The notes beneath the pieces are model-generated. The model saw only the letters and a list, made by a program, of their open reading frames with translations. It ran no database searches and was not told the DNA's origin. The position numbers and the translations under genes are program-made. A stretch of DNA of 64,000 bases, taken from NCBI GenBank assembly GCA_018261905.1, contig JAGTRU010000006.1:186001-250000 (forward strand), read 5' to 3'. Below, piece after piece: positions 25,577 to 28,867 of this stretch. Position 1 is the first letter of the stretch. Every line of letters begins with the position of its first letter. This stretch comes from Pseudomonadota bacterium (GTDB taxonomy: Bacteria > Pseudomonadota > Gammaproteobacteria > Burkholderiales > Rhodocyclaceae).

Positions 25577-28500
25577 ATGGATAATCTCGATCAAATCGTT
25601 AGCGAAGCCCGGACGGCGTTCGCTGCCATTGCTGACCCGGATGCGCTGGAACAGGTAAAGGCCCGTTTCCTCGGCAAGAGCGGGCAGATCACCGAACTTC
25701 TCAAAGGCCTCGGCAAGTTGCCACCGGAAGAGAAGAAAACTGCCGGTGCCGCGATCAATGTCGCCAAGACGGCCGTTGAAGCTGCGCTCAACGAGCGTCG
25801 CGAAGCGATCCGCAAGGCAGCGCTGGAAGCGCGCCTGGCCGAAGAGGCGTTGGATGTGACACTGCCCGGTCGCGCTGAAGTGCGCGGTGGCCTGCATCCG
25901 GTGACGCGCACGCTGGAACGCATCGAGTCGCTGTTCCGTTCCATCGGTTTCGATGTGGCCGATGGCCCCGAAATCGAAGAAGATTTTTTCAATTTCACGG
26001 CCATGAACACGCCCGAGGATCACCCGGCGCGTTCGATGCACGACACTTTCTACCTGCGGAATCCGGATGGCACGGTGGCCGACAAGGTGCTGTTGCGCAC
26101 CCATACCAGCCCGATTCAGGCGCGCTACATGAAGGCGCACGTCGAGCGCTATGGTCAGCTCGAACAAATGCCGGAAATCCGCATCATCGCGCCGGGCCGC
26201 GTCTATCGTGTCGATTCCGATGCGACGCATTCGCCGATGTTCAACCAAGTCGAAGGCCTGTGGGTAGGTGAAGGCGTTTCGTTTGCCGATCTGAAGGGCG
26301 TCATTGCCGATTTTCTGAGGAGCTTCTTCGAGACTGATGACCTCAAGGTTCGCTTCCGCCCGTCCTTCTTCCCGTTTACCGAGCCCTCCGCCGAAATCGA
26401 CGTCGCTTTCATGAGCGGCCCGCTGGAAGGCCGTTGGCTGGAAATCGCCGGTTGCGGCATGGTGCATCCGGATGTGCTGCGCATTGCCGGCATCGATCCG
26501 GAAAAGTACACCGGCTTCGCCTTCGGCTTCGGTCAGGATCGCCTGACCATGCTGCGTTACGGCGTCAATGACGCCGGCCTTGAAGTTGAAGGTCTGGAGC
26601 CAGTCGCCCCCCAATTCAACGACGTCGTCGTAGCCCAGGTGCTGGAAGTCGTCAAACATCCGGATGCCGACCGTTTGAATGTCTGCAAGGTCGATACCGG
26701 TCGCGGCGAGCCGACGACCATCGTCTGCGGCGCACCGAATGTTGCCGTTGGTTTGCGCGTTCCGTGTGCCTTGCCCGGCGCCAAGCTGCCGGGCGATTTC
26801 ACCATCAAGATCGCCAAGGTGCGCGGCATCGAGTCTTCCGGCATGCTCTGCTCGGCGAAGGAACTCGGCATCGCCGGCGAGGCGTCCGGCCTGCTGGTGC
26901 TGCCTGCGGACGCGCCGGTCGGTCAGTCGATTCGCGAATATCTCGATCTCGACGACCAGCAGTTTGAACTGAAGCTGACGCCGAATCGCGCCGACTGCCT
27001 GTCGTTGACCGGTGTGGCGCGCGAAGTGGCGGCCATTGCCGGTGCCCAGGCCAAGTTGGTCGACGTACCGGAAGTCAAGGCGTCCATCGCCGATCAGCGT
27101 GCTGTCGTCCTCGATGCGCCGGCTGCTTGCCCGCTCTATTGTGGTCGCATCATCAAGGACGTTGATGCCAAGGCACCGACACCGGAATGGATGAAGCGTC
27201 GTCTGGAGCGCAGTGACATTCGTTCGATTTCGGCGCTGGTTGATGTGACCAATTACGTCATGCTCGAACTCGGTCAGCCGCTACATGCCTTCGACAACAC
27301 CAAGCTGCAAGGTGCCGTGCATGCCCGCATGGCGAAGCCGGAAGAAAAGCTATTGCTGCTGAACGAGCAAACCATCGCTATCGATGCCGATATCCTGGTT
27401 ATTGCCGACGACGTCAAGCCGCTGGCCATGGCCGGCATCATGGGCGGCGAGGAGAGCGGTATCACGCTGGAAACCCGCGAGCTCTTCCTTGAGTCAGCCT
27501 TCTTTGCGCCGAAAGCCATTGCCGGTCGCGCCCGTCGTTACGGCTTCGGTTCCGATGCCTCCCACCGCTTCGAGCGTGGCGTTGATTTCGGCGGCGCCCG
27601 TCGCGCCATTGAGCGCGCTACGCAACTGATTATCGAAATCTGCGGCGGCGCCGCCGGTCCGGTGGTTGAAGCGAAGGCCGAGATGCCGGCACGCCATCCG
27701 GTTCGCCTGCGTACGGCACGTGCATCCAGCGTGATCGGCATGGCTTTTTCTGCTGAGCAGATCGCCGGCTTGTTCAATGGCCTCGGTCTGCCCTTTGTTC
27801 GCGAAGGCGACGGTTTCCTGGTGACGCCGCCAACCTGGCGCTTCGATATCGAAATCGAGGAAGACCTGATTGAGGAGATCGCCCGTCTGCACGGTTACGA
27901 CAACATCCCGGCCCCGGCGCCACGGGGCAAGCTGGAAATGATGGTGCAGCCGGAAGCCCAGCGCCCGTCGGCGCGTGTCCGCCAGCTACTGGTTGATCGC
28001 GGTTACCAGGAGGTGGTCAATTACGCTTTCGTGGAAGAAGCCTGGGAGGCAGATTTCGCTGCCAGTGAGGATTTGATTCGCCTGGCTAACCCGATCGCCA
28101 GCCAGATGGCGGTCATGCGCTCGACCCTGTTTGGCGGGCTGGTCGCCAATCTGGTGACCAATCTGAAACGTAAGCAAAGCCGCGTGCGCCTGTTTGAAAC
28201 CGGACGGACCTTCCGCCGCGATAGTCAAGGTGGCCCGGTCGCGGGCTTCCATCAGCCATGGCAGCTTGCGGGCCTGGCCTACGGCAGCGCCTTGCCTGAA
28301 GGTTGGGGGAGCGGTACGCGCAAGATAGATTTCTTCGATGTAAAGGGCGATCTCGAAGCCTTGCTGGCGCCGGCTCAATTGCGCTTTGAAAAACTGGTCC
28401 ATCCGGCGCTCCACCCCGGTCGCGCGGCCCGAGTGCTGCTAAATGGTCAAGATATTGGCTGTGTTGGCGAACTGCATCCGGAGTGGGTTCAGAAATATGA

Positions 28501-28867
28501 TCTGCCACAAGCCCCGGTCCTTTTCGAGGTCGATTTCGCTGCGGTCAAGTCCGTCCAGGTTCCGGCGTATGCCGAAGTCTCCAAATTCCCGCCGGTCATT
28601 CGCGATCTGGCTGTCGTGGTCGATCTGCAATTGGCGCTGCAAACCCTGCTTGATGGTTTGAAAACGCAGTTGCCACCCTTGGTAAAAGACGTCCAATTGT
28701 TCGATGTTTACGTTGGCAAGGGAGTCCCGGAAAACAAGAAAAGCCTTGCATTCCGTATAGTTATGCAAGATACTCAACGCACTTTGCTAGATTCGGAAGT
28801 TGATGCTGCAATGCAGCAACTGGTGACCTGTCTTGAACAGGCATTCAGTGCTCAACTGCGTGCCTAA
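25577..28867 (+). CDS. pheS-pheT: PheS-PheT, phenylalanyl-tRNA synthetase alpha and beta in one reading frame
   Basis: 1,096 residues. Residues 1-332 are PheS: coiled N-arm, motif 2 with [22 protein letters not shown], and motif 3 [17 protein letters not shown]. From 333 the sequence is Phe[20 protein letters not shown], the tRNA-binding fold to about 480, B3/B4 editing, B5 and a C-terminal anticodon-binding domain ending near [12 protein letters not shown]. Missing are about 16 residues of the usual PheS end (the LRxFFENDLRFLKQF type), the stop, and about 27 residues of PheT start. There is no stop codon between the halves. The enzyme normally works as a2b2. This is an in-frame fusion or a sequence error. 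pheT ends one base into ihfA. Confidence 0.9.

Follow-up and report, generated by a model that had tools for sequence, protein, structure and literature searches.

The single open frame in which the genes for both PheRS subunits appear fused very probably reflects an error in the genome record: ordinary, overlapping pheS and pheT genes would be present in the organism, and the assembly would have lost 128 nt between them. The frame lies in a window of 64,000 nucleotides (the whole stretch of DNA analysed) on contig C26 of a genome of 4,918,088 bases in 68 contigs. The titles of close loci place the organism near the Dechloromonas/Azonexus group, and the PheS of Dechloromonas denitrificans ATCC BAA-841 (L040) is 97.6% identical to the PheS part of the frame.

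A sequence-only reading of the window had drawn attention to the absence of a stop codon throughout this frame, which was confirmed (table 1), and the frame holds the expected set of Pfam domains of PheS and then of PheT in the expected order. Residues 38-332 correspond to positions 2-307 of the 324 positions of the PheS model TIGR00468, and residues 331-1095 to positions 27-798 of the 798 positions of the PheT model TIGR00472; among solved PheT chains, the six with the highest scores are matched from residue 25-28 onwards. Comparison with the relative G006 (L132) shows that 16 PheS residues and 27 PheT residues are absent at the joint, in agreement with the numbers estimated beforehand, and that nothing is inserted in place of the missing ends. 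Identity to 20 loci of the genus (L132-L151) is 92.8-97.9% for PheS and 86.6-90.7% for PheT. The earlier estimate that about 150 bases are absent with the frame kept holds for the loss itself and for the open frame, but not for the size: the record is short of exactly 128 nt at 26572/26573 in comparison with each of 15 genus-mates, because in these the ATG of pheT overlaps the TGA of pheS (ATGA) and the two genes are read in different frames. The loss of 128 nt therefore brings the remainders of pheS and pheT into one frame, an outcome to be expected in one of three random losses.

Table 1. Features of the pheST frame and sites of abrupt loss in the source genome (G000); positions are those of the window unless another contig or locus is named
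Feature	Position	Strand	Remarks
Joined ORF	25577..28867	+	1,096 codons/aa; internal stops = 0
pheS (PheRS alpha subunit), residues 1-332	25577..26572	+	record lacks last 16 residues and stop
Junction	26572..26573	.	blunt; 128 nt of 15 genus-mates gone here
pheT (PheRS beta subunit)	26573..28867	+	first 27 residues gone; later domains kept
tRNA-Val(GAC)	22201-22277
Spacer loss, tRNA-Val(GAC)/thrS	22292..22293	.	blunt; 71 nt vs G005, 72 nt vs G006
thrS	22339..24210	+	52-nt loss at ~24156/24157; frame shifted, C-terminus replaced
rplC loss	G000:C54:754/755 (L194:754)		153 nt, abrupt
tRNA-Leu(GAG)	L199:19799-19883 (G000:C61)		abrupt loss of 80-81 nt

The junction in related genomes is uniform. A search of 76 genomes of the genus gave matches in 67, the source genome included, and only in the source genome does the match extend over residues 1-1096 in one piece. 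Junctions were fetched from 60 of the other 66 matching genomes, one of them incomplete, and all 59 readable junctions contain the PheS tail, a stop and the PheT head, the last being scored via a WL motif upstream. The 16-residue PheS tail LRLFFEGDLRFLRQFA is identical in 54 of these junctions and differs in the other five at the last residue only. Among 80 homologous loci, 55 were taken as lying outside the genus by title and identity; all 55 keep the PheS tail and stop, and the PheT head was recognised in 54. The junction of the remaining locus (L103) is normal when read directly, and the exception is probably an anchoring error of the scoring script. A stop follows the PheS tail in all 80 printed junctions of the homologous loci. 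The proposal that the lineage makes a single-chain PheRS is contradicted by these genomes, in which pheS and pheT are separate genes with intact inner ends and none of the 59 readable genus junctions lacks the stop. Nor does the frame resemble a natural single chain that keeps its inner ends or has a linker, since both ends are gone and no insert is present.

Measured between the positions of the window's joint ends, the pheS and pheT parts in genus loci L112-L171 are either 128 nt or 152-154 nt apart (174 nt in one locus). The ATGA overlap was seen in the 15 closely read loci with the 128-nt spacing, and in those with the wider spacing the two genes are often in the same frame, with the stop alone between them. 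Natural fusion within the genus was also considered in view of 20 genus-mates with open frames of 1,048-1,175 aa, and it was rejected because an in-frame stop lies between the genes in each.

Within the source genome, a 551-base probe from G006 found two abutting halves only and no second copy of the junction, and a single PheS match and a single PheT B5 match were obtained, with no second pheS or pheT. As read from the junction, the joint is blunt and has no microhomology. The word CTGACCATG occurs shortly before the joint in the record and, in the relatives, just where the missing stretch ends; a slip between these copies was rejected, as it would have produced a different joint.

The second possibility raised by the sequence-only reading, a local deletion or collapse, is supported in that the sequence is at fault, but the fault is not merely local, since thrS, rplC, a tRNA-Leu gene and a spacer are affected as well. 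Four regions of the record, around pheST, the ribosomal protein operon, nuo and ftsZ (274,939 bases), were compared with the relatives G005 and G006, of which G005 was aligned over 155,079 bases and G006 was fetched over less. A loss was counted when at least 50 nt were absent, with nothing in their place, in comparison with both relatives. Five such abrupt losses, of 52-153 nt, were found; they are spread over three contigs (C26, C54 and C61) and three of the four regions, and the ftsZ region has no loss of at least 50 nt. The control comparison of G006 with G005, over 99,117 aligned bases, gave a single abrupt loss; it is about 80 nt long and lies in the rplT-pheS spacer. Comparison of clean ORFs gave 40 of 71 for G006 in the source genome, 45 of 80 for G005 in the source genome and 50 of 76 for the control (G006 in G005); this comparison is cluttered by shadow ORFs, and thrS alone was taken from it, the other losses being taken from the DNA comparison.

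The same kind of loss is thus found in other conserved genes of the record. In thrS the aligner split the loss into 25 and 27 nt around a 7-nt match, which makes the exact site uncertain. In rplC 51 codons are lost in frame, and L3 runs from MRRITMSLGLVGRKVGMT straight into IAGHLAKAG; the source genome has one rplC match, with an open frame of 191 aa; matches were obtained in 60 of 76 genus genomes, and none of them has a shorter frame, the next in length being 210 aa. The tRNA-Leu(GAG) gene has lost its first four bases and, by our reading, two acceptor pairs have become mismatches, although the gene is still called by ARAGORN. Microhomology at the five joints amounts to 0-1 nt by reading of the junctions. 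Of the three coding losses, those in pheST and rplC keep the frame, a proportion that is not significant at such numbers. For four of the lost stretches G005 and G006 are 91.7-95.3% identical to each other, and for the remaining one 58.0%. A cause lying in sequence common to the relatives is only a guess, because the flanks of the lost stretches are often equally conserved. The rest of PheS, PheT, ThrS and L3 is well conserved and in frame, and judging from their sequence the remaining parts of the damaged genes do not look like decay.

Other differences from the two relatives were seen that fall outside this count. They include losses below 50 nt and losses with replacement sequence, one of which, at C26:194812, covers about 1.0 kb in comparison with both relatives. 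The source genome is 55-130 nt longer than both at C26:207962, C16:29115, C16:37677 and C16:41142. Directly after tRNA-Pro(GGG) the window has a segment of about 30 kb (29657-59927) to which nothing corresponds at the equivalent site of G005 and G006; the ORFs near both ends of this segment resemble polysaccharide genes by our own reading, and a comparison of 29561-29760 with 59701-60200 gave no common word of 12-60 nt.

L3, ThrS and PheRS are essential, and this bears on the two readings that take the missing sequence as truly absent from the cell. According to one of them, a recent in-frame deletion joined pheS and pheT in this strain and left a single-chain PheRS that lacks the conserved C-terminus of alpha and the start of beta. 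The frame is open across all its codons, the remaining parts of PheS and PheT are complete and conserved, and a second PheRS was not found in the source genome, all of which would suit such a deletion; however, an essential enzyme would have lost two conserved segments simultaneously, among them the beginning of beta, which we take to be the start of domain B1, and this reading would not account for the losses in rplC, thrS and tRNA-Leu. We consider this reading highly improbable. Those further losses are accommodated if every loss is real and the sequenced strain or population carries many short deletions that do damage, as the similar sizes of the losses on three contigs might suggest. Such a cell would have L3, ThrS, PheRS and a tRNA damaged, yet the rest of PheS, PheT, ThrS and L3 matches the relatives closely and in frame, and the genome yielded no second PheS, PheT or L3 that could compensate; this reading is, if anything, still less probable than the former. 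A living cell with all five losses is not credible, and short stretches have therefore probably dropped out of the record.

Some observations speak against an assembly artefact. On the one hand, the genome is scored as 99.99% complete and 1.01% contaminated, the control has its loss of about 80 nt, so that abrupt losses do occur in spacers, and the fts region, one of the four, is free of losses of at least 50 nt. On the other hand, completeness scores tolerate partial genes. That the fault lies in the assembly rather than in the cell, and how it arose, we infer from the sequence. Most likely the organism has separate, overlapping pheS and pheT, and the assembly would have dropped the 128 nt in which pheS ends and pheT begins, the two remainders landing in one frame by chance. 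The same assembly would have dropped stretches of 52-153 nt elsewhere and joined what was left, and these abrupt losses point to an assembly fault of a systematic kind, such as gaps that were left unresolved and joined without their sequence, or stretches that collapsed. There are no N letters in 354,939 bases of the source genome, and eight other loci do hold N; since no gap mark is left in the bases read, we infer the exact fault as well, and it is possible that runs of N were removed before deposit.

We know of no earlier bacterial case of a single-chain alpha-beta PheRS, and among the papers listed by a literature search no title or abstract opening describes a bacterial alpha-beta PheRS fusion. 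The frame shares with the bacterial heterotetrameric (alpha-beta)2 PheRS the domains of PheS and PheT and their order, whereas that enzyme consists of separate chains and the record joins both, without the 16 and 27 residues at the joint. In fused GlyRS alpha-beta chains, the two subunits of an (alpha-beta)2 synthetase would already have been joined; however, GlyRS is a different enzyme, and nothing here shows PheRS doing likewise. The monomeric mitochondrial PheRS likewise consists of one chain and contains a catalytic module of the alpha type. According to PMC3275996 it is composed of the alpha catalytic module and the B8 domain of beta and, unlike the frame in the record, is not a full alpha-beta fusion.

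The case calls for caution, in that at least three essential protein genes and one tRNA gene are incomplete in a record scored as 99.99% complete. If true, a single-chain alpha-beta PheRS would be the first for a bacterium, as far as is known. Because pieces of essential genes are absent from this record, its fusions and truncations should be checked against relatives first.
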